From a virus: a stretch of DNA of 33,570 nt. This document shows positions 473 through 33,570 of this stretch, in pieces (the stretch's first letter is position 1; every line of letters starts with the position of its first letter). The DNA is taken from the IMG/VR virus record IMGVR_UViG_3300045993_000458, positions 1 through 33,570 of that record; one strand, 5' to 3'. The notes under the pieces were generated by a model, which did not search any database, was not told the DNA's origin, and saw nothing but the letters and a program-made list of their open reading frames with translations. The position numbers and the translations under genes were made by a program.

Positions 473-1540
473 TCAAAATATCGAGTAGTTTCTTTCTTGA
501 TTAGGATAATCACGCACAAAAATAGAAAAAGCCGTTTTTAAAATCTCCAAAGGCCATCTTCTAACCATACCCCCGCCGTCTAATACCTTCGGAGGCAATG
601 TTTCACCAGAATTTAACTCTTTATAAATTTTGGAGCATAAAAGGCCAAAAACCTGTGTATTTGTTATATTTTGATTTGGGTAAATTCCATAGGGTTTAAT
701 GCCATGTTGAACACCGTTTACCTCGATGTAATTGCCTGATGTCATAAACTTTATACTTTGATCCAATAATTCTACGATTTTGGTATTTGTTTCTTCCGTT
801 TTCCTTTCTATCCCCGACATTCGGATATTTGCTACTTCCTTTTCCTGTTTTAGCCCAGCTACTTCCTCATTAATTCCAGATACTTCCTCATTAATTATTT
901 TGTATTCAATCGCTCTTAGGGCATTTTGCTTATATAAATTTCCAAGCATTAAGTGATTTTGCCAAACAATATCGTTATTGAGTTCAGGAACATTCTCATC
1001 AACAACCGTTCCCTTTTTTGTTGCCAGAACTGCCAGTTGCTTGCGCAACCGTTTAGCAGGAGCACCGGCACCCATGCGCATACCCAAAATCAAAACGCCT
1101 TGCTCTGACACATAAGGTTCAAGTTTTTTAGTTTCCAGGCTTTCCATTCGCTTCCAATCTTCATCATATTCCAACTCGGCCTCATGTCTAGCGTTCCATC
1201 CTCTACTTTCCAAGCTTAGTGGTCTTATAATGTCGTTAAATCTGACCCACGGTTTATTATCGATGTAAATGCAACAAAGGCTTGCCCCTTCAAAGTCTAT
1301 ACGTGATAACTCATTCATTTTATCTCCCCTTATTCCGTGTTGCTTGGCGTGGCATGACGCACAGCAAACGATTAGATTTTCCAAACAATCCAGCGCATAG
1401 TTTTTGTTGGCGGGATACTTAACGTGGTGAACATGATCAGGATTGCCCCCGCAAAACTCGCAAGCGTTCCCCGCCCGGTATCTCGCGGCTTGCGCTAATG
1501 ACTTCCAGCTAGCCGATTGCAAATACTGGTGGTAGTCCAT
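473..1540 (-). CDS. HNH-domain protein with possible antirepressor-like middle region
   Basis: A 355-residue protein; the ATG at 1540 is preferred over an upstream in-frame TTG. Residues 20-70 form an HNH-type zinc endonuclease module: CxxC at 27/30, the HVHH core at 36-39, CxxC at 60/63 followed by His64 and His68. From about residue 80 the text changes. A segment (about 82-170) with an acidic aromatic patch and an ILGMRMG-AKRLRK stretch faintly resembles P22_AR_N/Bro-type antirepressor domains. Residues 208-260 are a coiled coil with a 21-nt tandem duplication (NEEVSGI/NEEVAGL), and the C-terminus is unassigned. It lies between the P-like loader and small genes. HNH proteins in phages include homing and packaging nucleases; here replication or regulation is more likely from position. 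The HNH call is strong, the antirepressor call weak. Confidence 0.8.
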   Translation of the reverse strand: MDYHQYLQSASWKSLAQAARYRAGNACEFCGGNPDHVHHVKYPANKNYALDCLENLIVCCASCHAKQHGIRGDKMNELSRIDFEGASLCCIYIDNKPWVRFNDIIRPLSLESRGWNARHEAELEYDEDWKRMESLETKKLEPYVSEQGVLILGMRMGAGAPAKRLRKQLAVLATKKGTVVDENVPELNNDIVWQNHLMLGNLYKQNALRAIEYKIINEEVSGINEEVAGLKQEKEVANIRMSGIERKTEETNTKIVELLDQSIKFMTSGNYIEVNGVQHGIKPYGIYPNQNITNTQVFGLLCSKIYKELNSGETLPPKVLDGGGMVRRWPLEILKTAFSIFVRDYPNQERNYSIF

Positions 1541-1552
1541 AAGCAAAACTCA

Positions 1553-4486: not shown

Positions 4487-4513
4487 ACTCTAACCTACGG
4501 TGCAATCATGAAA
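4487..4513 (+). repeat. 27-nt leader/start repeat, copy 1
   Basis: The segment ACTCTAACCTACGGTGCAAT plus the next seven bases (ending ATGAAA) is exactly repeated at 4791-4817. It covers the ribosome-binding region and first two codons of the gene at 4508. Upstream of both copies the sequence is similar but diverged (CTTGT, CCTA and TGAGATT in the same order), so the original repeat may have been 60-70 nt. Confidence 0.85.
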
Positions 4514-4741
4514 CTAGAATTTGCAACACAAGAAATTTGCGGCCCAACTGGTGCAGTAAAAATTGATCCCAAAAAAGATATAAATTATTTTGAAACGCTT
4601 AGTTTATTTTGCGCGGATAACGACATTGATTTATCTGAAGTATCTGATCTTGAATTTGAAGCGATGGCAACAGAACTATCACACTTCGGTTTAGGGTTTG
4701 ATGGCCCACTTGAACCGTTTTGGTTCTGGGTTGAAGCATGA
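4508..4741 (+). CDS. Hypothetical acidic protein in a repeat-bounded cassette
   Basis: A 77-residue, strongly acidic protein starting MKLEFATQEICGPTGAVKID and ending with an aromatic tail (LEPFWFWVEA). No family is recognised. Acidic small phage proteins are sometimes DNA mimics or inhibitors of host factors, but that is only a possibility. The gene begins inside a 27-nt sequence that recurs exactly at the start of the next gene, so the whole gene lies between direct repeats 304 nt apart. That layout looks like insertion or duplication at a gene start. It is the first gene after the strong promoter at 4373-4400. Confidence 0.6.
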   Translation: MKLEFATQEICGPTGAVKIDPKKDINYFETLSLFCADNDIDLSEVSDLEFEAMATELSHFGLGFDGPLEPFWFWVEA

Positions 4742-4790: not shown

Positions 4791-4817
4791 ACTCTAACCT
4801 ACGGTGCAATCATGAAA
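4791..4817 (+). repeat. 27-nt leader/start repeat, copy 2
   Basis: An exact second copy of the sequence at 4487-4513, here forming the ribosome-binding region and first codons of the Rap1a-like gene. The only ribosome-site-like string is GGTG about 8 nt before the ATG. A weaker relative, GACTCTAAC followed by CTATGGGTAATA, lies before the nuclease gene at 5276, but it is inside another coding frame and may be chance. Confidence 0.85.
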
Positions 4818-5141
4818 AATCTATTAATAGCCGCCATCCTGACAATGATGGCAACAAACGCTTTTGCTGAGATAAGTGGTAATGAATACATGAATTATTC
4901 ATACTCTGAACAAGTTTCATACATTGCAGGCATTACTGATGCACTTATATTTATGAATGTAATATGTGGAACAGATCAACATCAAACCTACGGACAATTA
5001 AAAAATGTTGTTGATAAATTTTTAAGAAATAATCCTGAACAAACTCATTTTAGCATGTCATTTTTATATGGAACTTCGATTATGTCGGCTTTCAATTGCC
5101 GTCAAACAGATAAAAAACAAAAAACCGAAGTGAAGTGGTGA
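4812..5141 (+). CDS. Rap1a/Tai-immunity-like periplasmic protein
   Basis: A 109-residue protein with a clear signal peptide (MKNLLIAAILTMMATNAFA, cleavage after about residue 19). The mature part carries YSEQVSYIAGITDALIF, Cys52, a QLKNVVDKFLRNNPEQTH helix and Cys96 in MSAFNC. This is the layout of the Rap1a/Tai immunity fold, in which two cysteines form a disulfide and the protein blocks amidase effectors of type VI secretion. In a phage such a protein could guard the cell wall of the lysogen or infected cell from peptidoglycan enzymes, perhaps as superinfection exclusion. It sits behind a repeated leader in the early operon. The fold call is by pattern; the target is unknown. Confidence 0.65.
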   Translation: MKNLLIAAILTMMATNAFAEISGNEYMNYSYSEQVSYIAGITDALIFMNVICGTDQHQTYGQLKNVVDKFLRNNPEQTHFSMSFLYGTSIMSAFNCRQTDKKQKTEVKW

Positions 5142-5310: not shown

Positions 5311-6070
5311 AACTTATTTTGCTGAGAACCGGATTAACAACTCCGGTTTGAAGCTGATAGCCAGGACTCCTGCGCATTTTAAATATAACCTGGAGCATCC
5401 AGAAGATCGCAAGCCAACTCCTCAGATGATGTTGGGAACAGCGGTTCATTGCGCGGTGTTGGAACCTGCAACCTTCAATGATCGGTATGCTGTTGCGCCT
5501 GCCTGTGACAAGCGCACCAAAGAAGGCAAAGCTATCTGGGCCGATCTTGAAGCCAGCAACAAACTGATTCTATCCTCTAGTGACTTTGAAGCGGTTCAAG
5601 GCATGAGCCAGTCAGTCTTAAACCACGAAACAGCCAGCAAGTTGTTAGCGGCGGGTGATCCCGAAGTGTCCGTATTCACCGACATTGAAGGAATACCGGC
5701 AAAGGCACGGCTGGACTGGTACAGAAACGGTATAATCCTCGATCTGAAAACCACGACTGCGGCTGATCCAGAATCTTTCTCGAAGTCGTGCGCCAACTTT
5801 TCTTATGCTATACAAGCAAGTTTTTATATGGATGTTTGTGCCGCTGCTGGAATTGAAGCGCACACTTTTATTTTTGTTTGTGTAGAAAGTACCGCGCCTT
5901 TTTCCGTTGCAATATATGAGCTTGATGACATATCACTTGACTGGGGCCGAGATCACTACCGATCCTCCCTTAACAAATATCGTGAATGTATGGCCTTAAA
6001 TGAATTTCCGGGATTCCCAAACGAGATACAAACAATCTCATTACCTGCATGGACGCTAAAAAACTATTAA
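5276..6070 (+). CDS. RecE-like PD-(D/E)XK exonuclease
   Basis: A 264-residue protein of the RecE/exonuclease VIII-like phage family (DUF3799 type). GTAVHCAVLEP with His58 comes first, then Glu130 in DPEVSVF, Asp147 in ARLDW and the core Asp156-x-Lys158 in IILDLKTTT, then YAIQASFYMD with Gln180 and Tyr184. These form the PD-(D/E)XK metal site that degrades one strand of double-stranded ends 5' to 3', leaving 3' tails for an annealing protein. The next gene fits that partner. The length equals that of stand-alone phage RecE nuclease domains. The start at 5276 lies inside the preceding small membrane gene. Confidence 0.85.
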   Translation: MENGIYKNLAAETYFAENRINNSGLKLIARTPAHFKYNLEHPEDRKPTPQMMLGTAVHCAVLEPATFNDRYAVAPACDKRTKEGKAIWADLEASNKLILSSSDFEAVQGMSQSVLNHETASKLLAAGDPEVSVFTDIEGIPAKARLDWYRNGIILDLKTTTAADPESFSKSCANFSYAIQASFYMDVCAAAGIEAHTFIFVCVESTAPFSVAIYELDDISLDWGRDHYRSSLNKYRECMALNEFPGFPNEIQTISLPAWTLKNY

Positions 6071-6086
6071 ACAAAGGTAACTAAAA

Positions 6087-7262
6087 ATGAACGCTCTAAA
6101 CCCGTTTACACAACAACCAACTAAACAGCTTTCTGCTTTAGCGAATACAGATCAAAGCAGGAGTATCGCAGAGGTTCAAGCGGCAATGATAGTAGCTCGG
6201 TCTAATCCGCGTAACCAAGTTGAAGCTATGGATCGCATATTAAACGCCTGTACTCGCCCTAGTTTGGCTGCTACTGCGGTTTATTCCTATTCCCGTGGCG
6301 GTACTGACATAACCGGCCCGACTATACGCTTGGCTGAAACAATAGCCGGTGCTTGGGGAAACATCCAGTATGGCGTAAGGGAAATATCACAAGATGAAAG
6401 CTCTAGCACAGTGCAGTCCTATTGTTGGGACGTTGAATCAAATGTCAGACGCGAAGTAACTTTCCAAGTTAGCCACTATCGACAAGCAAAAGGTACAAAA
6501 AAGCTGCTTACTGATCCTAGAGACATATATGAGCAAACTGCCAATCAGGGCGCACGTAGATTGAGAGCTTGCATACTCGCCGTTATCCCCGGCGATGTTG
6601 TAGAGGCCGCCATTAGCCAAATTGAGACCACACTTCACGCCACTGCCGATGTCTCGCCCGAAGGCGTTAAAAAACTGGTGGATGCCTTCGCCGCGATAGG
6701 TGTAACAAAGGAACAACTGGAAGCCCGAATACAGCGACGGGTTGATAGCATACAGCCGGCTCAGGTCGTAGCGATCCGCAAGATTTATGTGTCAATAAAA
6801 GATGGTTTATCGACAAAAGACGAATGGTTCGACGAGATTAAACCAAAAACAAAGACGGTTGACGATCTACTGAACCCGCCAAAAGTAGTCGACATTAATA
6901 CCGGAGAGGTTTTTGAACCAAAGGACGCGCTTGCTCCTGAATTTAAAGTAGATCGTTATACACTCGGCAAGATATTGGCATTAATCTCTGAAGCCAAAAC
7001 CCAGGCCGAGCTGGACGAACTGAATCCGGTTATTGAAACGCTGGACAAAAATTCTGCGGATAAAGCTAAAACGGCACATGTAAAACGGGCTTCAGTTCTA
7101 GCGAAAGCAACAACAATTGCTGATGAACGTGATCTAACTTCCAAAATTGAAGCCTGCCCAGATAAACAAAGCTTGGTTGATCTGATAGAATCACTTTCAG
7201 ATTATGAGCAAGCCAAGTATCGTGGTCTACTTGACGAGCGGCTGGACTTCTTGAGGGACTAA
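6087..7262 (+). CDS. Probable phage single-strand annealing/recombination protein
   Basis: A 391-residue protein with an AGGTAAC ribosome site. Residues 30-175 are the recognisable part: NPRNQVEAMDRILNACTRP, YSYSRGGTDITGPTIRLAE, WGNIQYGVREI, then LLTDPRDIYEQTANQGARRLR and IPGDVVEAA. I know this pattern from phage early operons but not a firm family name. Position directly after a RecE-type nuclease suggests the annealing partner (RecT/Erf/Rad52-like role) that coats 3' tails and pairs them. The C-terminal third is charged and helical and may bind partners. Its stop overlaps the next start (TAATG). The role is inferred from context; the gene itself is certain. Confidence 0.7.
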   Translation: MNALNPFTQQPTKQLSALANTDQSRSIAEVQAAMIVARSNPRNQVEAMDRILNACTRPSLAATAVYSYSRGGTDITGPTIRLAETIAGAWGNIQYGVREISQDESSSTVQSYCWDVESNVRREVTFQVSHYRQAKGTKKLLTDPRDIYEQTANQGARRLRACILAVIPGDVVEAAISQIETTLHATADVSPEGVKKLVDAFAAIGVTKEQLEARIQRRVDSIQPAQVVAIRKIYVSIKDGLSTKDEWFDEIKPKTKTVDDLLNPPKVVDINTGEVFEPKDALAPEFKVDRYTLGKILALISEAKTQAELDELNPVIETLDKNSADKAKTAHVKRASVLAKATTIADERDLTSKIEACPDKQSLVDLIESLSDYEQAKYRGLLDERLDFLRD

Positions 7263-9829: not shown

Positions 9830-10966
9830 TCACGCCGCCACCTTCTCAGGTTGATATATAGCTCCACTCAGTTGCCGTTCCCCGGCAGCCTTAATATTAA
9901 TCGCGGCGTTTAAGTCACGATCAATTACTAAACCACATTCGCACTCGTAAATACGTTGCGACAATTTCATTATGCGGACATTACCGCATGAGCTGCAAGT
10001 CTTGGTACTCGGAAACCAGCGGCTAATCTTAACCACTTCCTTTCCATACCATTGCGCTTTGTATTCAATCTGCCTGTTTAACTCGAATATCCCCACATCA
10101 GATACCGCTTTTGATAACTTGCGGTTCTTTAACATGCCGTAAACATTCAAATCTTCAACACAGATCACATCGTTTTCACGCACAAGCTTGGTTGTCACTT
10201 TGTGCAAAAAATCTTTTCTACTGTTCGCGATCTTCTCGTGAATCCTCGCTACGACAATCCGTTGCTTCTTCCATCCGTTACTACCTTTCTTTTTCTTGCT
10301 TAATATGCGCCCTGCTTTCTTCAATTTACGCTGATATTTGTACGTAAACTTTGGCGCACCCGATCTGTCATCTTCACTGGTTACAATCACTTCCTTTATG
10401 CCGACATCAATACCCACGACTTTTCCGGTTAGCGGCATTAATCCTTGTTCAACCTCGCACATAAATCCGACAAAATACTTGCCACTGGCTGTCTTACTCA
10501 CTGTCACCATCTTCGGTATGCCGCCGGGTACTTGTGACCACTTAACTTTTAGCTCACCAAGTTTTGGCAATTTAATCAGTTCACCTGCCCGGTAATTATT
10601 CAGAACATACCTTTGGTATAACTGATACCTGATACTTTGCGCGTGGCTCTTTTTCTTAAACTTTGGAAACTTTGCCCGGCCTTTGAAAAAGTTATCGAAT
10701 GCCTTATCCTGATCAATAAGTTTTTGGTTCAACACAGTTGATGTCGCATCGCATAACCACGGATAATCTATCTTCTTATACTGGGAAATATTTTTAGCTA
10801 TATCATACTTAGAAGACAGGCTAACACCCCAGTTTTTGTAAGCATAATCACGCTCAAGCAATGCACGATTCCAAACCCAACGCGCACAACCGAACTCAAT
10901 AGCCAGTTGCGCAACTTGTTCTGGTTCTGGATACAGCCTAAATTTATATGCTTTCATGATTTTCAT
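9830..10966 (-). CDS. tnpB: TnpB RNA-guided nuclease (IS605/IS1341 type)
   Basis: A 378-residue protein from ATG 10966 (an ATG at 10957 is the alternative); an upstream extension is hydrophobic and unlike TnpB. It starts MKIMKAYKFRLYPEPEQ, as usual. RuvC motifs are complete: Asp187 in VVGIDVGIKEV, Glu271 in ICVEDLNV, and the final Asp in VIDRDLNAAINI (residues 347-358). The zinc finger has Cys324/327 and Cys342/344. Such proteins cut DNA next to a short motif under guidance of omega RNA and help the transposon persist. No TnpA is nearby, so the element is of the TnpB-only type. With all catalytic acids present it is not a dead repressor-type derivative. Its -10 box lies seven bases before the ATG, suggesting a leaderless message. 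Confidence 0.95.
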   Translation of the reverse strand: MKIMKAYKFRLYPEPEQVAQLAIEFGCARWVWNRALLERDYAYKNWGVSLSSKYDIAKNISQYKKIDYPWLCDATSTVLNQKLIDQDKAFDNFFKGRAKFPKFKKKSHAQSIRYQLYQRYVLNNYRAGELIKLPKLGELKVKWSQVPGGIPKMVTVSKTASGKYFVGFMCEVEQGLMPLTGKVVGIDVGIKEVIVTSEDDRSGAPKFTYKYQRKLKKAGRILSKKKKGSNGWKKQRIVVARIHEKIANSRKDFLHKVTTKLVRENDVICVEDLNVYGMLKNRKLSKAVSDVGIFELNRQIEYKAQWYGKEVVKISRWFPSTKTCSSCGNVRIMKLSQRIYECECGLVIDRDLNAAINIKAAGERQLSGAIYQPEKVAA

Positions 10967-10980
10967 GTATAATATTATAC
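10967..10980. promoter_or_regulatory. Perfect 14-nt palindrome with two opposed -10 boxes
   Basis: GTATAATATTATAC is its own reverse complement and contains TATAAT on both strands. Leftward, TTGCAC lies 15 nt upstream of the -10, giving a fair promoter for tnpB. Rightward, transcription would start near 10980 before the RHH-like gene. The same half-site GTATAAT occurs inverted in the other RHH promoter at 3185-3204. It could be an operator, an element-end hairpin, or both. Confidence 0.6.
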
Positions 10981-11010
10981 ACAATAAATAAATATGTGCA
11001 AGGTTATACA

Positions 11011-11166
11011 ATGTCCACTTCAAATAATAACTACGTGTCAGCCCGAATAAAGAAAGACACCTACAAAAACCTTAAACAATTAGCGCTTGATTTAAATATT
11101 CCACTTACCCAGGTATTTGATTTCCTATACAATCAATATCAAAATACGTTAAAGGTTAATAAATGA
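11011..11166 (+). CDS. Small ribbon-helix-helix-like protein divergent from tnpB
   Basis: A 51-residue protein starting MSTSNNNYVSARIKKDTYKN with an AAGG ribosome site seven bases before its ATG. The sequence reads as a short strand (YVSARI), a helix (KKDTYKNLKQLALDLN), a turn (IPL) and a second helix (TQVFDFLYNQYQN), the ribbon-helix-helix order. It probably binds DNA as a dimer; the palindrome 31 nt before its start is the natural site, which would link it to tnpB expression. Its TGA overlaps the next ATG. It could be a phage gene beside the element or part of the element. Confidence 0.6.
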   Translation: MSTSNNNYVSARIKKDTYKNLKQLALDLNIPLTQVFDFLYNQYQNTLKVNK

Positions 11167-19240: not shown

Positions 19241-21046
19241 CTAGCCTGTGACCGTCCAGCCTTTTTGCAAAGCCAAGCCGGTATTTAGTAACCTATAAGC
19301 AAATGTCGCTGTTCCTGAGCCGGTCATTTTTTTATCTAGCACTACGCTGACATTAGTGTTAACGGTAACGACCAAGGCGCGATACAAAATTGTGCCGCTG
19401 CCATCAGTAGTTAAGGCTATGGCTGCGCCCCCTGCGGTTAGCGAGACCTGGAAGGTATCTGTGGCCGCACCGACAACATAATAGGGCGTATAGGTATCAA
19501 TGCCCGTGGTAGTCACTATTGTTTTAAACGAAACTAAATCACCATTGGACAAGCCGTGTGCGGTTGCCGTAACGGTATCGCCTGAGTCCTGTAATGTACA
19601 GGCTAATGCGGTAGTTAAAGGGCTTCCAGTTCCGGTGACTTGCATGCCTGCAACAATGCCAGTTGTTGAGGCCATTGTGATCGTAGCCGATCCAGCCGTT
19701 GAGGTTCCTGATTTACTAATAGGTGAGGCAGCGCCCCAGTTATTAGAAATAGTTAAGGTCTGTGCTCCTGCCGCCGTACCAATATTAGTTATGATGGATT
19801 CAATGGCATTTTGGCTTAGTTTGCAGTTTGTATAACTGATGGTGTATTTACTTCCACTAAGGGCTCCTGCTGATAATGAAAATGTAGAAAATGTCGTACC
19901 ACCGAAAATAGAGCTAAAGATATTCCCTGCTGCTGTATTTAACAAAGGTATTGTTTGCAGACTGTAACATCCATAAAACATGTTGCTAAAATCGGTGCCT
20001 GCTGCGGTATTTAACAAAGGTATCGTTTGCAGGATATAACAGTTATAGAACATGCTGTTAAAATTAGTTCCTGCTGCGGTATTAATAAATGATATAGACT
20101 GCAAGCTATAACAGTTATAGAACATGCTGCTAAAATTAGTGCTAGCGCCGGTATTAATCAACGGTATTGTTTGCAGACTGTAACATCCATAAAACATGTT
20201 GCTAAAATCGGTGCCTGCTGCGGTATTTAATAAAGGTATCGTTTGCAGGCTGTAACATCCATAAAACATAGATGAAAAAGCATTAGCTGTACCGCCTGCC
20301 GTATTTAATAACGGTATCGTTTTTAAGCTGTAACAACTATTAAACATATTTACGAAATTAGTGCCAAATGCTGTGTTTAGCGGCGGTATTGATTGTAATT
20401 TGGAACAAAGACCAAACATCATGTTGAAATTAGTACCTGCTGCCGTGTCAAGCAACGGTATCGACTGCAAGCTATAACAGTTATAGAATATATAGCCAAA
20501 TGAACTTACCAAATTTGAGTATAAACATATTTGCTCCAAAACTGATAAACGAATATTTGTTGATGCTGATCCTGCGGTAGCTACACCAATTAACAGACTT
20601 GATAAACTTGATCCTGCTATAGCAATATCCAAAAATCCGCTAGCATATTTCTGTAACCCCGTTTGGTTATGAATTTTATGCAAATTTAACGTGGTTAGAT
20701 TCTGCCCTGCTTGGGGTGTCACTGTAACAATTGCCTGTTTATAGCCTCGACTGCAATCTGTTCCTGTTAATGCGGAATTGCTGTAATCAAATATATGATT
20801 AGCCGTAACGCCACTTGAGAAATTCTCAGTGAGTCCATCGCCCCAATTTACCGTGTAATTTCCAGCGGCGTTTAATGCTAGAAAATTAGAATCTGGAAAA
20901 ACAGCATGAAGACCGACGAATTTCTGATCGCTGTCTGTTATTGTTGGCAACGCTAACCAATCGGAAGGGCGAACCCATGAAGATGTTGATCTTATCGGAT
21001 AGGTTCTATCCGCTATTTTAGATTGCGCTAGCGTACGGCTGCTCAT
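19241..21046 (-). CDS. Virion protein with DUF285/BspA-type leucine-rich repeats
   Basis: A 601-residue protein. Residues 40-90 hold an immunoglobulin-like or PKD-like piece (NYTVNWGDGLTENFSSG). Residues about 187-385 form eight repeats of 24-26 residues of the type NTAAGTDFSNMFYGCYSLQT-IPLL, the DUF285/BspA leucine-rich repeat known from surface proteins of bacteria and mycoplasmas, with the MF..C.SLQ.IP core. The C-terminal 200 residues are Ala/Thr/Gly rich beta domains with AGMQVTGTG-type strands. The gene lies in the tail region and overlaps the preceding stop, so it is likely a host- or environment-binding decoration. Repeats are nearly identical in DNA, so unit number could change. Confidence 0.8.
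   Translation of the reverse strand: MSSRTLAQSKIADRTYPIRSTSSWVRPSDWLALPTITDSDQKFVGLHAVFPDSNFLALNAAGNYTVNWGDGLTENFSSGVTANHIFDYSNSALTGTDCSRGYKQAIVTVTPQAGQNLTTLNLHKIHNQTGLQKYASGFLDIAIAGSSLSSLLIGVATAGSASTNIRLSVLEQICLYSNLVSSFGYIFYNCYSLQSIPLLDTAAGTNFNMMFGLCSKLQSIPPLNTAFGTNFVNMFNSCYSLKTIPLLNTAGGTANAFSSMFYGCYSLQTIPLLNTAAGTDFSNMFYGCYSLQTIPLINTGASTNFSSMFYNCYSLQSISFINTAAGTNFNSMFYNCYILQTIPLLNTAAGTDFSNMFYGCYSLQTIPLLNTAAGNIFSSIFGGTTFSTFSLSAGALSGSKYTISYTNCKLSQNAIESIITNIGTAAGAQTLTISNNWGAASPISKSGTSTAGSATITMASTTGIVAGMQVTGTGSPLTTALACTLQDSGDTVTATAHGLSNGDLVSFKTIVTTTGIDTYTPYYVVGAATDTFQVSLTAGGAAIALTTDGSGTILYRALVVTVNTNVSVVLDKKMTGSGTATFAYRLLNTGLALQKGWTVTG
19947..20230 (-). repeat. Near-identical 72-nt LRR units; exact 68-nt pair 216 nt apart
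   Basis: Within the leucine-rich repeat gene the DNA segments 19947-20014 and 20163-20230 are identical over 68 bases and lie exactly three 72-nt units apart; the intervening units are similar. Identity beyond what protein selection demands, including silent positions, indicates recent duplication or gene conversion. Confidence 0.85.
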
Positions 21047-21379: not shown

Positions 21380-22072
21380 TCATGCGCCCATAAATAAGAA
21401 ATGTGAACCGCCCGCATCGCCTTGTGGGCCTGTGGCTCCTGTGGCTCCCGTAGCGCCTGTGGCTCCGGTAGCGCCTGCTGATCCCGTAGTTCCAGCAGCA
21501 CCCGCGCTTCCAGTAGCGCCTGTGGCTCCGACCGACCCGTTCGCACCCGCCGCTCCGGTTGCTCCTTTTATGTTAGCAACAATGGCGTAAGTTCCTGATG
21601 TTCTTAAATAAACATCGCCAGTGTCATCATCAAGGTAATAATCACCATCAAGTCCTAAACTATCGGATGGCACGCCAGAAGCATCACGCCAGACTGAGCC
21701 ACCGCCACCGCCACCGCCACCGCCCGTTATATCATCAAGGCCAGCTACAGTTATATCTCTATCAGGAAACGTATAAGTCCGTGCTGCCGTGTTGGCATTG
21801 GTCAAAAAGCTGGTAAATGTGGCTAACGCATTTTTGAAGTTAATTTGAAATAAAGTAAGCCCAACATAGCCCCCAGTTGCATCCTTTTCAGAACTTGCCT
21901 GCTTTAGGTTCAACGCGGTTTGTTGTGCTGTTGAGACCGGTTTTGCGCTATCTGCGGTATTATCGACATTAGCTAAACCAATATCTGTCTTAGCAATACC
22001 GGTAATCGTATCGCCGGGTTGCAATTCCTGGATTGACGTACCATTGATAACTAACGGATAACGTGCCGACAT
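21380..22072 (-). CDS. Collagen-like phage tail protein
   Basis: A 230-residue protein. Residues 1-110 are an attachment domain ([53 protein letters not shown]) typical of phage fibre N-termini. A run of nine glycines follows, then a spacer ([20 protein letters not shown]) and collagen-type Gly-X-Y repeats ([26 protein letters not shown]) up to about residue 222. Bacterial and phage collagen-like repeats form triple helices, so it should be a trimeric stalk. Repeats are encoded by GC-rich triplets prone to slippage. It heads a group of adsorption-type genes next to the gp10-like gene. Confidence 0.8.
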
Positions 22073-26973: not shown

Positions 26974-27004
26974 TTTAACCTAATTAATTAATTAACCGAA
27001 TTAA

Positions 27005-27244
27005 TTAAACAATCGGAGGTGTAGGTGTTACATCAGGAGTCAAATCATCTAACGCTTTAGCAGAAGCTTGTAAGTCAGTAATAGACTGCACAACATCCTC
27101 CGGCAAGTCTGCATTAGCAGCATTAGCAACCAGTTTATCAATCTTGGCTTGCAAATCATCAACCTTGGTGACAATTTCCTTTTCTGCTTTGTTTAACTGA
27201 TCTTTAATCGAGACGTTTATTTTTAAAAGCTCTTCAATTTTCAT
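27005..27244 (-). CDS. Small coiled-coil protein downstream of the coat gene
   Basis: A 79-residue protein from the ATG at 27244, which has GAGGAA upstream; a longer frame to 27304 adds a His/Gln-rich stretch without a good ribosome site. Residues 1-60 form heptads (KIEELLKINVSIKDQLNKAE, KVDDLQAKIDKLVANAA) and the end is Pro/Thr rich (LTPDVTPTPPIV). It may be a head-assembly or decoration protein. It stands between the beta-rich 112-residue protein and the gp4-like factor. Not recognised. Confidence 0.6.
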   Translation of the reverse strand: MKIEELLKINVSIKDQLNKAEKEIVTKVDDLQAKIDKLVANAANADLPEDVVQSITDLQASAKALDDLTPDVTPTPPIV

Positions 27245-27312
27245 AAGTATATGTTCCTCAAATTGGGTGTTTGGTTGATGATCTGGTTGGTGTCGATTGT
27301 GCATGGAACTTA

Positions 27313-27366
27313 ACAGCCTTTTTTACCCGGTTTAGTGGGTGGTTTTTTAGTTTTTGTCTTATCCAT
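27313..27366 (-). CDS. 17-residue basic micro-ORF
   Basis: MDKTKTKKPPTKPGKKGC is encoded between the beta-rich protein and the coiled-coil gene, with AGGAAT repeated just before the ATG. It is strongly Lys/Pro/Thr rich. It could be a real micro-protein or a chance frame; the good ribosome site is the only support. Confidence 0.25.
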
Positions 27367-27374
27367 TCCTATTC

Positions 27375-27713
27375 CTAATTTCTCAAGTAATTGCCCAAAA
27401 TAGCCAGCGACCAAACGCCCGCCGCCGGTGGTGTGATAATAGCGTTTGAGGCGTTGTACCATGTGATGACAACCGCATCATTCGCCGCACAGACCAGACT
27501 TAACAACTGCAACCCATTAGGAAGCACAACGGCATCCCGTGGGGCTATCGCCAAATGTAAGTCAGTGGTCTTAACGCCGGTAGCGGTCACGGTATCAGAG
27601 ATAGTCCCCTCGTCCGCTATCGCCGTACCACCGTTAATTTGATAAGAAGCAGAAGCCAGTATCGTGATAGGAAGCTGGTCGGTAATGTTATTAAAATGAG
27701 ATATTGATGGCAT
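27375..27713 (-). CDS. Small beta-rich protein after the coat gene (possible decoration protein)
   Basis: A 112-residue protein that begins two bases after the coat gene stop. The sequence is strand-rich (QLPITILASASYQINGGTAI, TVTATGVKTTDLHLAIAPRD, GLQLLSLVCAANDAVVITWY). Its place and small beta form fit a capsid decoration or stabilising protein; the family is not known to me. A similar role for the coiled-coil protein next to it is possible. Confidence 0.6.
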   Translation of the reverse strand: MPSISHFNNITDQLPITILASASYQINGGTAIADEGTISDTVTATGVKTTDLHLAIAPRDAVVLPNGLQLLSLVCAANDAVVITWYNASNAIITPPAAGVWSLAILGNYLRN

Positions 27714-27714
27714 G

Positions 27715-28986
27715 TTAACCTCCCAGCCTAACAGCTAATTCTGGATAAATTGTCTTGCAACCCCATAGGCACTCAATTCTACAAGGGATCTGATTTGAAT
27801 TGATGTCATATTGTCTGACAATTCGGATTGAAAACCCTTCGTAATTTTCACGAGCTGCAAAATGTACGCCGCCAGGTAGCTCTTGATCCACTGTAGCCAA
27901 TGCAAACGCGCCTTTTTGGAAAGCGAGGTTTTGACTTTGACCCGATGCTCCAACTGCTCCTGTATACATGGTAATGACCGCTGTTGAGGTCGGTATTCCT
28001 GTGCAAGTTGCGTTTTGCGCCGTGGTTCCCGTGGCATTAGTGGGAATGTAAGGCGGGTAGAAAGGAATCACGTTTCCTGATGTAGCCGCTAACGTTGTAT
28101 CTGAGGTAACTACAAATTGCATCAATCGACCAGTCGACAAGCGGCTTTGCGGATTGATCGCATATACGCCCGCAATTGAAAACACCGTGCCTTTTGGAAG
28201 GTTTGACGTTCCTGTGGCGGTCGTTGTCAATGTTGCATCACCGGACACAGGAACCGCTGCTAAAGCTGTCCAAGTACCCGCTGCTAATGGCGTAAAGCTC
28301 TTTATGTTCTGATCCATCGCAAAATCAAAGCCCAAGACACCATTGCCCATTACACCAGACTCAAACAATCCGCCAACTTTTGAAGCTGGATTAAATAAAG
28401 CGGTCATAGGCGTTAACACAGACACTTGAGACATAGGATCAAGGACAATAGCCCGTCTATCAAGTGGAGCGCCATTTTCAGAGAGGATCGCGCCAGCGGT
28501 TAGAATCTGGCTTTGTACGGCGGCAATCGTATTATGCGTGCCATCATTCAAATAACCGGATGTACCATAACTTGAAGCACTTGCACCGGCATTGACAAAG
28601 CGATTAATATCTTTGTAGAGGTCGGTTAAGCCTGAATCGACTTTGTTGGCTAATGACACCATCGCGGGCCGTAAAAACTGCTCGCGAAAATCATTAACAT
28701 TCAAGGTTAAATCAGTGGTTGAAAAGGTTATGTCAACCCCGGACAAGCGGTTAATGGTCAACGGTACAAAGCTTTCGTTTGCCCCTTCAACCTGTAACGC
28801 TTCGCCTTCCCTGCCTAAATAGCGTGGGGGTTTTCGTAAGTTTGCTGTAGCGCCAATTTTAGCGCCTGACACAGCGAATCTGCTGTCATATTCTCGCGTG
28901 ACGTTTTTAGCCATCACTAACGAGTTTTTAAGTATGACCAGCGCCTCTTTCGTTATGATCGAGGGGGTGAGCGTGGTATTACTCAT
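27715..28986 (-). CDS. Major capsid protein, P22 gp5-like
   Basis: A 423-residue protein, nearly the length of the P22 coat (430). The N-terminal arm (LTPSIITKEALVILKNSLVM, NVTREYDSRFAVSGAKIGAT, LRKPPRYLGREGEALQVEG) and the following LSGVDITFSTTDLTLNVNDF, LRPAMVSLANKVDSGLTDLY follow the P22 coat family, a HK97 fold with an inserted domain (about residues 220-345, beta-rich here). It forms the procapsid shell around the scaffold encoded just upstream. A CCCGC/GCGGG hairpin precedes it in the message, placed for mRNA stability or processing. Confidence 0.9.
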   Translation of the reverse strand: MSNTTLTPSIITKEALVILKNSLVMAKNVTREYDSRFAVSGAKIGATANLRKPPRYLGREGEALQVEGANESFVPLTINRLSGVDITFSTTDLTLNVNDFREQFLRPAMVSLANKVDSGLTDLYKDINRFVNAGASASSYGTSGYLNDGTHNTIAAVQSQILTAGAILSENGAPLDRRAIVLDPMSQVSVLTPMTALFNPASKVGGLFESGVMGNGVLGFDFAMDQNIKSFTPLAAGTWTALAAVPVSGDATLTTTATGTSNLPKGTVFSIAGVYAINPQSRLSTGRLMQFVVTSDTTLAATSGNVIPFYPPYIPTNATGTTAQNATCTGIPTSTAVITMYTGAVGASGQSQNLAFQKGAFALATVDQELPGGVHFAARENYEGFSIRIVRQYDINSNQIPCRIECLWGCKTIYPELAVRLGG

Positions 28987-29009
28987 AATTACACCTTATC
29001 TTAGGTAAG

Positions 29010-29023
29010 CCCGCGTCTGCGGG
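29010..29023 (-). promoter_or_regulatory. GC hairpin in the leader of the coat gene
   Basis: CCCGC (29010-29014) and GCGGG (29019-29023) with a 4-nt loop stand 24 nt before the coat start and 46 nt after the scaffold stop. No strong T-run follows leftward. It may shield the coat message from decay or separate scaffold from coat expression. Confidence 0.5.
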
Positions 29024-29068
29024 TACTTTTAGTTAAATCCAGGCTTAGTTAAAGGAATATAACCTGAC

Positions 29069-29875
29069 TTAACTAGCCATTTGTTTTTTACTCCATGCCT
29101 CATATTCTTTCATTGGCATAGTTTCAGGGTCATTGGGTTTTGTTACAGAGGCGACCTTAATAGGCGTAAGTGGAGCGGGTGCGCTGGATACCGTCTTTTT
29201 TGGCGGTTCTGACGTGGGCTTAGGGTGTTCAATTTGCGCTTCAAGCTTTCCAAGGTAGCGGGTCGCTTGTGCGAGTGTCATTTCTGCCAGATTATCAAGT
29301 TCTTGGGTATTTTTGCCCAGATAATAAGCTAGCTCTACCGGGTTATCGGATTCCATGATTAGGCCGGTAAATTCGGTCACTTGTGCGAGGGGGTGCGCGG
29401 TAAAATCTTGGGTGACTTCCTCGTAGTCAGGATGAGCGGCTATTGATTCTGTAATCAACTTTTGCACCACCTTTTCTCTTTCCGCTACATTACTACTTTT
29501 TCTTTGATTGTCAAGGGCTTGTTGCACTTTGAAGTCGGTTAGGGCTTCCAGGTAATCAGGATCATAACGGCCGGCTGCAAATTGTTCCGGGTCAGGTGCG
29601 CCGTTAGGAAGTGTTTTAATCTGTTTGGGCGCGGTTAGCTGCGCTTCAAGGGCTTCAATCCTGCGCTTAAGCTCATTCTTTTCATAGACTTCTTTGTCTA
29701 TACGCTTTTGTACACGCTTAGAGTATTTTTCCTGTTCTGTTTCCTCTTTTGGCTCCGGTGCTTCCGGTTCATTGGTTTCGTCCTCTGGTGGGGCTGTGGC
29801 TTCTGGTTCTTCGGCTACAGGTTGTTCGGGTTCGGGTTGCGGTTGGCTTAAGAAAGCCTCGTCTTGTGCGCTCAT
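29069..29875 (-). CDS. Scaffolding protein, P22 gp8-like position
   Basis: A 268-residue protein. Residues 8-45 are Pro/Glu rich (QPQPEPEQPVAEEPEATAPP), residues 45-85 a strongly charged helix (SKRVQKRIDKEVYEKNELKR, RIEALEAQL). A helical middle with YDPDYLEALTDFKVQQALDN and HPDYEEVTQDFTAHPLAQ follows, and the end is basic. This order is normal for phage scaffolds, which direct coat assembly and leave before packaging. It lies between portal and coat as in P22 (303 residues there). Its first 11 codons and upstream 35 nt recur 262 nt upstream, where they start a different small gene. Confidence 0.85.
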   Translation of the reverse strand: MSAQDEAFLSQPQPEPEQPVAEEPEATAPPEDETNEPEAPEPKEETEQEKYSKRVQKRIDKEVYEKNELKRRIEALEAQLTAPKQIKTLPNGAPDPEQFAAGRYDPDYLEALTDFKVQQALDNQRKSSNVAEREKVVQKLITESIAAHPDYEEVTQDFTAHPLAQVTEFTGLIMESDNPVELAYYLGKNTQELDNLAEMTLAQATRYLGKLEAQIEHPKPTSEPPKKTVSSAPAPLTPIKVASVTKPNDPETMPMKEYEAWSKKQMAS

Positions 29876-29907
29876 GGTTTACTCCATAGGTATACTGGGT
29901 TACGCGG
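29840..29907. repeat. Portal-end/scaffold-start repeat, copy 2
   Basis: A 68-nt segment that includes the scaffold start (MSAQDEAFLSQP) and, upstream of it, a remnant of the portal end (ATGGAGTAA, as in the portal's final Met-Glu-stop). It matches 30102-30169 at 61 of 68 positions. Confidence 0.85.
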
Positions 29908-29921
29908 GTTGCATTTATAGG

Positions 29922-30137
29922 TTAATGCCCTATAGAGGTTGATGTTACTTCGTCTGATATTACAATATCAGCTAGTTTGTGCGTATTATAATAATTGCCA
30001 TGTCTTTTGAATTTAATCTGTAAGTTAAAAAACTCTCTATCAGCAAGGACTTCCTTAGAGTATTGATATAACGCTTCTTGCAAATATTTTGGTAATTCCA
30101 TCGGTTGGCTTGAGAAAGCCTCGTCTTGTGCGTTCAT
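29922..30137 (-). CDS. Small protein with captured scaffold start
   Basis: A 71-residue protein. Its first 12 residues (MNAQDEAFSSQP) are nearly identical to the scaffold N-terminus, but the remainder (MELPKYLQEALYQYSKEVLA, FFNLQIKFKRHGNYYN, LADIVISDEVTSTSIGH) is unrelated to scaffold and AT-rich. The start codon, ribosome site and portal-end sequence are copies of those that serve the real scaffold gene 262 nt downstream. It appears to be a foreign small gene inserted at the scaffold start, which has taken over its translation signals. It begins three bases after the portal stop. Function unknown. Confidence 0.6.
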   Translation of the reverse strand: MNAQDEAFSSQPMELPKYLQEALYQYSKEVLADREFFNLQIKFKRHGNYYNTHKLADIVISDEVTSTSIGH

Positions 30138-30169
30138 TGTTTACTCCATCGGTTCACTGGGTTGCGCGG
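30102..30169. repeat. Portal-end/scaffold-start repeat, copy 1
   Basis: The end of the portal gene and the start of the small gene at 30137. It repeats at 29840-29907 with seven mismatches. Together the copies bound an AT-rich 194-nt insert. Confidence 0.85.
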
Positions 30170-32243
30170 CTTGTGGCTGCGGTTGTTGCGGTTGTTGTTG
30201 CGCGGGTTTCTCGCTGGCTTCGCTGCCCTTATCCGGGTCTTCAGCTTCCCCGTCGTTTGGCTCTGATAGCGTTTGTGCTACCTGATCCATGGCGATTTTA
30301 TGAAATAGCCCGGTGCTTTCCATGGCAATCTTATGATCAACTTCCAGGCGCTTCGTTTGAGCGTTAAAACGGTCGATCTCAAGCTTTTCTTCCTCGCTGT
30401 TGATCTGGTCATGGGCCGCTTGAAGTTCCTGGCTTAAGTGCTGCATCTGGTCTGCCATTGTGTTCATTTGCTGCTCTATCTGCGGGTCAATCTTGGGCTT
30501 GCCTTCCTCATCATCGGCTTGAATAATCTGCTGTATCTGCGGAGGGAGCATGGCTTTTTTGCGCTTGGCTATCTCTTGCGCCCCTGGCCAGTCCATATTG
30601 CCCACGATAATATCCCCGGCAATCTGCATCAATGTGGGATCGGTTTGGCACATTTGCAGTTGGGCCTCGACTGCTTCCGTCCGCTTGGTGGCGAATGACG
30701 GCCCAATATCAGCAACCACGTCATATTTTCCCTTGGTCAAATTATAAACAACGGTCGTTGAGCCATCCTGATTCTGAATCTCGTTGTAAGCTTCAGGCGC
30801 TTGCGGATCAATCTTGACCGTCTTGGCCTCGCCATCCTCTCCCAATATGCGAATAACGCGGGCGGTGTCCAGTATGGACGGAATGAGTGATATTATAATG
30901 CGGCCTGCGTGCTTAACTGAACGCGCTAGATTAGCCTGGAAGTGAAAATTGCTTGTGCTGGCTTGCTTCATTTGTGAGTTTATGGCACGGCCCGACTGGT
31001 CGCCCTCTCGGTTTCCCAGGGAAGCATCATAAATGCCCATAACGGCCTTAATGTTTTCAGCGGTTCTATTGGCCGTTGACTCAAAGCCGGTATTGACTTG
31101 TGGCGGCGGTTCCCGGCGCGGCTGCGGTGCCATCGTGCCATCAATCGAAACCGGGTTATAAGTCAGAACTGACACATTGATCTTGTTCGCTACTTGCCAT
31201 TCCAGTTCATAGCCGTCAAGCTGGCCTTCGGCAGCGATATAAGGGGATTTTGGGGCCAGTGCCAGGGTTTCCGCATTAGCCGACTCCATGTAGTTATATA
31301 GCCGTTGTGAGTCTTTAGCGGGCCTTGTTAAGCCTTGAAGGTGCCTTTTACCTTCGACCCATGTTTCCAAGCCCAATACAGGAATAATTGGGATCCATTC
31401 AGTTTTAAGCTCTGACTTTTCTAAAACCTGATCTCCACCTAGCTTTATACACTTGCAGATTTTCTCAGTTGACTCTCGATCTTTGACAATATACTGATGA
31501 CCTTCCTCGCTTATTTCATCCTTCCAGCCGGTTGATCCGTCCTGTAACTGGCAAAACGTACGCGGCTTTGATTCAAGATAATAATAATCAGCTACCCTAA
31601 CAGCGTCCTGTTTGTGCCATCCCGCTTCATCCGGTTCACTCCATCCTGTTACATCAACATTGGGCCAGCGTTCCTTAAAGTCATCGACCAGCACATCTTC
31701 AAAGACAAAGCCCCATTCTGCATCGCTTCCATCCGGTTCGGTGCTGCTTGGGTCTATGGCTACTGACGCGCTATCTACAACCCGCTGGAATTTTATATCC
31801 TGATCGAATGAATCTGGCGCGGCATAGTCGGTTATAAGCCGAAAATAGCCTAGCCCCGTATCTATCTGGTTATCTGCGGCAGTCTCAAAGCATTGATCTG
31901 CGTTAGAGGCTTCCTGGACGTGCCTTAGATAGCCGTTAAAGATGTCTGCGGTCTTAATGTCGGAATCGTCATCCGCTGGCCTTACCTTGACCGTGGGCGT
32001 ATTCTCCCTTATCTCGTTAGCTATCTGGTTCCTGAACTGAAGCAGACGGTTAATCGTGAGCATTGGCCGCTCGGATCCTGGGTGGTTTCTATCCCGTTTG
32101 ACTTCTTCAGGCCATTGCTCGCCCAGGCGCACGAATTTCTTATCCTCAACCCGCAAGATGTTTTCGTCGTTTTCAACGTCTGTAGCCTGTTTGAAACGCT
32201 TGTGGGCTATCTCAATCAGCTTTTTGTCGGTTTCGTTTTTCAT
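30141..32243 (-). CDS. P22-type portal protein
   Basis: About 700 residues from the ATG at 32243 (an in-frame GTG at 32267 would add eight). It begins MKNETDKKLIEIAHKRFKQA and carries LGEQWPEEVKRDRNHPGSER, MLTINRLLQFRNQIANEIRE, SVAIDPSSTEPDGSDAEWGF and LGNREGDQSGRAINSQMKQA, matching the large portal family of P22-like podoviruses (gp1, 725 residues). It forms the 12-subunit ring at one vertex through which terminase pumps DNA and to which gp4-like and gp10-like factors bind. The last 150 residues are a helical, charged barrel-like region ending in Gln/Pro repeats. It follows terminase and two small inserted genes. Confidence 0.9.
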   Translation of the reverse strand: MKNETDKKLIEIAHKRFKQATDVENDENILRVEDKKFVRLGEQWPEEVKRDRNHPGSERPMLTINRLLQFRNQIANEIRENTPTVKVRPADDDSDIKTADIFNGYLRHVQEASNADQCFETAADNQIDTGLGYFRLITDYAAPDSFDQDIKFQRVVDSASVAIDPSSTEPDGSDAEWGFVFEDVLVDDFKERWPNVDVTGWSEPDEAGWHKQDAVRVADYYYLESKPRTFCQLQDGSTGWKDEISEEGHQYIVKDRESTEKICKCIKLGGDQVLEKSELKTEWIPIIPVLGLETWVEGKRHLQGLTRPAKDSQRLYNYMESANAETLALAPKSPYIAAEGQLDGYELEWQVANKINVSVLTYNPVSIDGTMAPQPRREPPPQVNTGFESTANRTAENIKAVMGIYDASLGNREGDQSGRAINSQMKQASTSNFHFQANLARSVKHAGRIIISLIPSILDTARVIRILGEDGEAKTVKIDPQAPEAYNEIQNQDGSTTVVYNLTKGKYDVVADIGPSFATKRTEAVEAQLQMCQTDPTLMQIAGDIIVGNMDWPGAQEIAKRKKAMLPPQIQQIIQADDEEGKPKIDPQIEQQMNTMADQMQHLSQELQAAHDQINSEEEKLEIDRFNAQTKRLEVDHKIAMESTGLFHKIAMDQVAQTLSEPNDGEAEDPDKGSEASEKPAQQQPQQPQPQAAQPSEPME

Positions 32244-32308
32244 TGGGTTCTCGCTGCTGCGTGACACTGTAATTTTTCCGCATGTTCGGACACTTTACTG
32301 AAAGTTAA

Positions 32309-32503
32309 TTATTTGAATAGCGGCATCATTTCTGCTCCATTTTTTAGGACTATTCCTTCGCTTTCTTCTATTTTCACAATTTCATTATTTCTGTTGTATG
32401 TTGTTTTTTTGCAAATGCTTTTAATATCATCACCATAAACAAAATACCGAATTTTAAAATCAACATGACCAAATATAATATTTAGTTTTATTAACTCATC
32501 CAC
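32309..32503 (-). CDS. Small AT-rich gene before portal
   Basis: A 64-residue protein (start GTG, then DELIKLNIIFGHVDFKIRYF and VYGDDIKSICKKTTYNRNNE) with AAGGGG about 8 nt upstream. The GTG lies inside a decayed copy of the terminase gene's 3' end. It is AT-rich compared with terminase and portal. No family is recognised. It might be an older insert between the terminase tail and portal. Confidence 0.5.
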   Translation of the reverse strand: MDELIKLNIIFGHVDFKIRYFVYGDDIKSICKKTTYNRNNEIVKIEESEGIVLKNGAEMMPLFK

Positions 32504-32545
32504 GCGCGGCCCCTTGTGTGATGTGAATTTGTGTTTTAGGCTTGT
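32490..32545. repeat. Decayed copy of the terminase gene end
   Basis: This stretch matches the real terminase end at 32765-32820 at about 48 of 55 positions with one base gap. Read leftward it still encodes KPKTQIHI before a frameshift destroys the tail. It lies 275 nt downstream of the true terminase end and so bounds the small gene at 32547-32747. Confidence 0.85.
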
Positions 32546-32546
32546 T

Positions 32547-32747
32547 TTATTCTTTTAGCCTTTCAATAATATCTATAAAAGCCTTATTTAATTCATCAAA
32601 AGTAATCTTATCTTCATAAAAATCATATATAACAACTTTTAAATTATGCTGTACCTGTAAGCGCGTAACTTCTAAGCCATTTTCAATGTTAAATTGTTTA
32701 AATAAATCTACTTTTATTGTCATGTCGCTTTCAATCTCTATACCCAT
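32547..32747 (-). CDS. Small AT-rich gene inserted after terminase
   Basis: A 66-residue protein (MGIEIESDMTIKVDLFKQFN, then LEVTRLQVQHNLKVVIYDFY and FDELNKAFIDIIERLKE), apparently a strand-rich front and helical tail. The ATG lies 18 nt after the terminase stop. The gene is AT-rich and lies between the true terminase end and a decayed copy of it. No family is recognised. The direct repeats on either side point to insertion as a cassette of about 275 nt. Confidence 0.55.
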   Translation of the reverse strand: MGIEIESDMTIKVDLFKQFNIENGLEVTRLQVQHNLKVVIYDFYEDKITFDELNKAFIDIIERLKE

Positions 32748-32765
32748 TTAAAAATACACACAATA

Positions 32766-33570
32766 TTAACTCATCCACGCGCCCACGCCTTGTGGGATGT
32801 GAATTTGTGTCTTGGGCTTACCTTCGGATTTTGGCTTGACTATGCCAGGAAATAGCGCGGAAACGGCCCATATCATAGCGTCGGCTCTATTTGGGCTGTT
32901 TTCCCCTAAGTATCCCAATGTACTGAATGAGGTTAACTCCTCCTCCAAGTCTGGGAAGTTGCCAACATGCCTAATTTTTCCCTGTTCGTAGAGTGCGCTT
33001 ATCGGTTCGGCTCTGACAGCTTTTCCACGGGTTGCTGTGACGGTTGAATAGGGCGTGCGTGGCCGTGCTGTCTGTATGACATGCTTGACCATCGCGCCGC
33101 CATAGTTGATCTCGCCAACAATCATATTAGCCTCATGTCGGTCGTAAGCATCGGTGGCTACTTTGCCCCAGGTAGCAGGGCCACACTTAACCGTGCAATC
33201 TTCCAACACGTAACAGTTGCCATCAATCCCAAGCCCGGCAACCACAATACCAATAGCATCATTATCCGCGTTATCGACATCGCCTGATCCGCTTGGATCG
33301 ACCGCCACTACCACTCTAATTAACTGAGGCACATCGCCATCAAGAACGCGCCAGGTGTCGATAATCTCATCCGTGAATAGGGCATTAGGTGTCTCGTCTG
33401 CAAATTCACCTTCTAAAAACCGTTTTCTGAGCCGTGCACTTAATCCCTTGAGCGTTTCAAGATAACCCTCTGATAGATTCTGGACATTATCAATCGGATT
33501 GATACGGTAAAATGCATAATCATCCGGATTTTTTAACTGTTGTTTGGTTTCTATATCTATTTTTTTGATA
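32766..33570 (-). CDS. Terminase large subunit, C-terminal part
   Basis: The frame runs from the right edge to a TAA at 32766, giving 268 visible codons; an internal GTG near 33332 is not the start. The visible part begins at the end of the ATPase (GLSARLRKRFLEGEFADETP-type segment) and contains the RuvC/RNase H-like nuclease: VVVAVDPSGSGDVDNADNDA with the first Asp, VGEINYGGAMVKHVI with the Glu, and NRADAMIWAVSALF with the last Asp. It cuts concatemers and powers DNA into the procapsid through the portal. The end KPKTQIHIPQGVGAWMS recurs in decayed form further downstream. Confidence 0.9.
   Translation of the reverse strand, partial: IKKIDIETKQQLKNPDDYAFYRINPIDNVQNLSEGYLETLKGLSARLRKRFLEGEFADETPNALFTDEIIDTWRVLDGDVPQLIRVVVAVDPSGSGDVDNADNDAIGIVVAGLGIDGNCYVLEDCTVKCGPATWGKVATDAYDRHEANMIVGEINYGGAMVKHVIQTARPRTPYSTVTATRGKAVRAEPISALYEQGKIRHVGNFPDLEEELTSFSTLGYLGENSPNRADAMIWAVSALFPGIVKPKSEGKPKTQIHIPQGVGAWMS

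Follow-up and report, generated by a model that had tools for sequence, protein, structure and literature searches.

Small AT-rich accessory genes lying between late genes are familiar from the morons of lambdoid phages, and the small genes considered here are of the same composition and placement. Recombination at gene boundaries, as it occurs among lambdoid phages, does not by itself leave a boundary in two copies.

Duplicated gene ends are known from fungal mitochondria, where mobile endonuclease ORFs occur together with a carboxy-terminal duplication, as in atp6 of Allomyces macrogynus and in atp6, atp9, cox2 and nad3 of Glomus (PMC3630166). The layout in these genes is that of a foreign end attached to the host gene, followed by the mobile endonuclease ORF and then by the displaced native end (PMC3630166). 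Among phages, the free-standing homing endonucleases of T4-like genomes (mob and seg) insert between genes with co-conversion of the flanks, and a word search of the review on these elements finds duplication unmentioned (PMC2988022). Repeats at translation starts are represented by the Start Associated Sequences of Cluster K mycobacteriophages, a 13-bp motif present in 11-19 copies (PMC3203893).

The DNA analyzed here, referred to as the window, comes from metagenomic data and is a virus record of 33,570 bases, taken over its whole length. Its head genes lie on the minus strand in the order terminase, two small ORFs, portal, a 71-aa ORF, scaffold and coat (the last recognized by PF11651, E 1.3e-36).

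The portal-scaffold boundary

The elements of this junction, in the coding direction, are:

30141..32267, minus strand: P22-like portal gene (PF16510, E 1.3e-165)
30102..30173, minus strand: upstream boundary copy, with the true end of portal and, serving the 71-aa ORF, a ribosome site and start of scaffold type
29922..30137, minus strand: 71-aa ORF; its first 12 residues are scaffold-like and the remaining 59 have no known relative
30097..30106, minus strand: microhomology of 10 nt, AACCGATGGA, at the left-hand insert junction, found also at the portal end (30145-30154)
29912..30101, minus strand: inserted segment of 190 nt holding one gene; ATG at 30101, last base of the stop at 29922, then a further 10 nt
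29840..29911, minus strand: downstream boundary copy, with a non-coding remnant of the portal end and the genuine ribosome site and start of scaffold
29069..29875, minus strand: scaffold gene (phrog_8865, E 1.4e-38)

The two boundary copies form a gap-free direct repeat of 72 nt with 64/72 identical positions (88.9%) and a spacing of 262 nt. An earlier note on this DNA had described the repeat as 68 nt long (29840-29907 and 30102-30169, 61/68); it is real, and its true length is 72 nt. Within positions 27000-33570 the top 60-nt self-match is 54/60, compared with no more than 39 in 60 first-order Markov shuffles. Read on the minus strand, each copy comprises the last ~11 codons of portal and then the first 12 codons of scaffold (36 nt). 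The sequence ATGGAGTAA lies inside the final portal codons of both copies, and the GGAG within it resembles, and to judge from its sequence can serve as, a ribosome site. In the downstream copy, the portal-end half has lost its coding capacity: a TAA interrupts the frame, and the differences between the copies are without synonymous bias.

The first three bases of the segment between the copies are an ATG and its last are the 10 nt past the stop, so that it is a one-gene insert. Its ATG shares the frame of the captured scaffold-like start MNAQDEAFSSQP, and together these make up the predicted 71-aa ORF, whose product would include the stretch MNAQDEAFSSQPMELPK. The view that an AT-rich gene consists here of a copy of the scaffold start fused to unrelated sequence is borne out (12 + 59 residues; GC of 29912-30101, 0.31, and of portal, 0.50), as is the view that neither neighbor was harmed, the reading frames of portal and scaffold both being kept.

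No match to the 71-aa ORF was found in phages (by tblastn), PHROGs, NCBIfam or PADLOC, and the single Pfam match, to DUF234, is below cut-off (E 0.061). IMG/VR returned its own contig and one chance match, a "MELPKYLQ" peptide in a large unrelated protein of L005. Identity with a known phage protein was rejected on these searches. A search for the same cassette at other sites, as suggested in the earlier note, found the insert nowhere else in phages and IMG/VR. A structure prediction from the single sequence was uninformative (pLDDT 55).

The nearest portals by protein, in IMG/VR and bacterial genomes, are at most ~43% identical, apart from that of contig L002 (100%). In the portals of highest identity the gap to scaffold is -4 (L019), +2 (L021) or 70 nt (L020), and the two genes are also close-packed in EBPR podovirus 1, Rhodoferax P26218, PBR31, BA3 and VvAW1. 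Since the most similar portals are nearly adjacent to scaffold, the insert of the window is, from these sequences, most likely derived; relatives without it, which the earlier note had looked to as support for insertion, thus exist at the protein level. Searches at the DNA level yielded no close relative of the boundary, and no empty site or donor for the inserts of the window. Unrelated genes stand at this junction in other genomes (110-aa in PAE2, 165-aa in MW202573 and 658-aa in L003), and by such comparisons the portal-scaffold junction is a recurrent insertion point. In the portal tree the window clusters with L020, which has the 70-nt gap, and with L007, which has an insert (support 0.63).

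Further duplications in the window

Self-comparison of the window brought out a second case, which had escaped the first reading: the 3' end of the terminase gene is present twice, at 87.5% identity. A third, shorter duplication lies among the early genes on the plus strand. The features are:

32764..32819, minus strand: terminase 3' end, attached copy, from self-comparison
32547..32747, minus strand: AT-rich ORF of 66 aa, enclosed by the two copies of the terminase end
32489..32543, minus strand: terminase 3' end, second copy, frameshifted and holding the GTG start of the 64-aa ORF
32309..32503, minus strand: 64-aa AT-rich ORF, beginning within the second terminase-end copy
4487..4513, plus strand: 27-nt start repeat, copy 1, ending ATGAAA, at the start of ORF 4508-4741
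4791..4817, plus strand: 27-nt start repeat, copy 2, identical to copy 1, at the start of ORF 4812-5141

The segment between the terminase-end copies, which holds the 66-aa ORF, is 220 nt long with a GC content of 25%. The probability of an open frame by chance is ~0.006 for the 71-aa ORF, ~0.0004 for the 66-aa ORF and 0.004 for the 64-aa ORF, and domain searches found no nuclease domain in any of the three. The 66-aa ORF has a predicted fold with pLDDT 82, for which a PDB search gave no match with E < 0.1. "Start capture," the term under which the portal-scaffold case had been described, fits the start acquired by the 71-aa ORF and covers half of the pattern, as it is the end of a gene that is duplicated at terminase.

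The third duplication is start-only and precedes two adjacent early ORFs, the second of which (4812-5141) has a sub-threshold match to the Rap1a immunity protein (PF18602, E 1.4e-5). Repeated start regions of small genes, comparable in type to this 27-nt repeat, were also seen in other P22-like phages (L095, 3342-3369 and 3601-3629; L008, 1389-1451 and 1936-2001; L081, 1870-1919 and 2267-2319).

A DNA scan of 168 records (1,574 gene ends) found as clear insert-flanking duplications of gene ends the two of the window and one in another lineage. In a protein-level scan of 2,143 gene ends, only the window and that lineage, in which the duplication surrounds an HNH gene, stand out as terminase-end duplications; the other high scorers were tail-gene repeats, successive HNH genes and short local repeats. 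L284-L286, the best relatives by terminase, were considered as close relatives and set aside, in that terminase identity of 86% (amino acids, over the core) is lost in the last ~20 residues. In these contigs (around 6001-6741) the C-terminal tail and the downstream gene both differ, which marks a mosaic break close to where the window has its duplicated terminase end.

The window has several other features of note. A stand-alone TnpB-like gene (9830-11023, minus strand; OrfB_IS605, with a Cas12f1-like TNB domain) has its relatives, at no more than 48% identity, on plasmids of marine gammaproteobacteria. In a 357-aa gene (473-1546, minus strand) the region near the N-terminus weakly matches HNH (PF01844, E 0.018, below cut-off), and on that match the gene is a possible nuclease in the same genome. 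Two repeat arrays lie in coding regions, one of several diverged copies of a 72-nt unit (19858-20500) and one of 9-nt collagen-like repeats (21417-21566).

An HNH gene between duplicated terminase ends

In the P22-like contig L097, of the phage type of L174, two copies of the terminase end enclose a 164-aa ORF. This ORF matches HNH_3 (E 3.7e-16) and AP2 (E 1.4e-5, under its curated cut-off) and is by these domains a predicted homing-type endonuclease. The layout is common to seven near-identical contigs and the diverged L179. A pattern scan found the empty site in ten close relatives, in which the terminase ends in REFVDRAPRRAYAPGGISNSWMGA followed by the stop, with the next gene immediately after; the terminase end of L269 is one residue pair off from this.

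Comparison of the filled L174 with the empty L272, whose flanks are 98.2% and 100% identical, shows the native terminase end identical over 68 nt and moved downstream of the endonuclease, where it forms the leader of the next gene. The end attached to the L174 terminase is diverged, with 53/75 positions identical to the native one. As it is the attached end that is diverged, and the native end is unchanged but displaced, the HNH element came with a replacement end. Insertion with duplication of the boundary can be regarded, from these alignments, as established for this lineage. A tryptophan is present among the last seven residues in 110/111 homologous terminases, mostly as WMGA or WMGS, and because this tail is kept, an insertion there must re-supply it.

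That HNH mobility always leaves flanking duplications is refuted by ~70 further loci carrying this HNH family, none with such a duplication, and by L318 and L344, in which the HNH gene directly follows terminase and precedes portal, overlapping or abutting both neighbors with no boundary duplicated. Since HNH genes also enter the terminase-portal interval in this way, duplication is one of several solutions.

Origin of the duplicated boundaries, and known systems

The reading that we favor, with moderate confidence, is that AT-rich accessory genes were inserted in a manner that left the junction in two copies. For the window, such insertion is strongly supported by the comparisons above. The insertion with a duplicated boundary that the earlier note had put forward is upheld by empty relatives, foreign composition, recurrence at terminase and the base-by-base comparison in the HNH lineage; these do not tell apart a boundary brought by the cassette from one made in place. 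The upstream copy would close portal and hand the newcomer a ribosome site and start, while the downstream copy would hand the same to scaffold, its portal-end half decaying, and the same process would have operated at the terminase end. The start signal of the next gene lies within the end of the previous one, such that a plain insertion would damage a neighbor and boundary-duplicating insertions would survive; selection on the junction would then explain the duplicated form. The likeliest route for the window, by analogy with the HNH lineage, is recombination with a phage in which the cassette was already joined to that phage's variant of the boundary, the native boundary being displaced. 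The cassettes of the window would thus have arrived with their boundary, and the small predicted proteins would be dispensable accessory products. The two duplications have diverged to a similar degree (11% and 12%), which weakly fits one donor lineage, the sites compared being few.

A tentative alternative, which we think improbable but the strongest of those considered, is that the boundary was duplicated in place, a staggered break or template switching having been filled with foreign DNA to leave target duplications of 72 bp and 56 bp that later diverged. The in-frame TAA and lack of synonymous bias that distinguish the portal-end copies resemble neutral decay of one copy, and the 10-nt microhomology at the left junction of the insert is, as sequence, a hint of microhomology joining. 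Against this, the HNH lineage, the sole one that can be resolved, has an attached end that is diverged and foreign, and not one newly copied from the native end. The window duplications, being almost equally diverged, would moreover require two events of similar age, a weak point given the few sites.

It is very unlikely that the repeats are instead functional start signals placed before several genes, after the fashion of Start Associated Sequences, and unrelated to insertion. Each copy does include a start with its ribosome site, two starts are covered by the 27-nt repeat (4487 and 4791), and the repeats of L095, L008 and L081 also lie at starts; every repeat is, however, two-copy and locus-specific and reaches into coding sequence at the end of the gene before it, and no further gene start in the window carries the boundary repeat.

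An assembly error joining two strains, with and without a variant, is scarcely credible even for a metagenomic record, as the contig L002, which extends past the window, has an identical layout at 100% identity across 3,954 bp (a modest check only, this second contig being possibly from the same sample), and as a second junction of the window is arranged alike, as are seven near-identical contigs and one diverged contig of the HNH lineage.

How an intermediate stays viable when phages gain accessory genes between essential, overlapping genes can rarely be observed. In the present case a scar is left, namely a spare copy of the junction that leaves both neighbors intact, and for the HNH lineage the states before and after insertion are both available. 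A testable idea that follows is that compact operons accept mainly insertions that bring a replacement gene end. More speculatively, and with considerable doubt, orphan small genes may have a general route into overlapping phage operons, one that needs no nuclease of its own or is mobilized in trans. Each cassette would provide a spare end and start, such that a phage could acquire genes within its essential head operon and pass through no non-functional intermediate, and the route would have been used two or three times here. A literature search, with most subscription papers outside its reach, found no phage report of such boundary duplication.

Like the repeats of the window, Start Associated Sequences cover translation starts, but the window repeats are long, locus-specific and two-copy, and extend into coding ends (PMC3203893). 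Points in common with the mob and seg genes of T4-like phages are intergenic insertion beside essential genes, the HNH class in the case of the L097 lineage, and spread by recombination, whereas the small genes of the window are without a nuclease domain (PMC2988022).

The closest parallel is that of the fungal mitochondrial ORFs, in which, as in both the window and the HNH lineage, an insert lies between two diverged copies of the end of a host gene (PMC3630166). The HNH lineage matches the mitochondrial case in the origin of these two ends, a foreign one being joined to the gene and the native one displaced (PMC3630166). It is important to recognize three differences: the inserts of the window are small orphan ORFs with no endonuclease, the portal-scaffold copy spans the start of the next gene as well, and the displaced phage copy still serves as the leader of that gene (PMC3630166). 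As their small ORFs are orphans in which an endonuclease was looked for and is absent, the inserts of the window are not filed as homing elements; on sequence they resemble the mobile-ORF layout in placement, which falls short of showing membership as such. The fungal mitochondrial case and the boundary duplication of these phages are nonetheless the same in kind.
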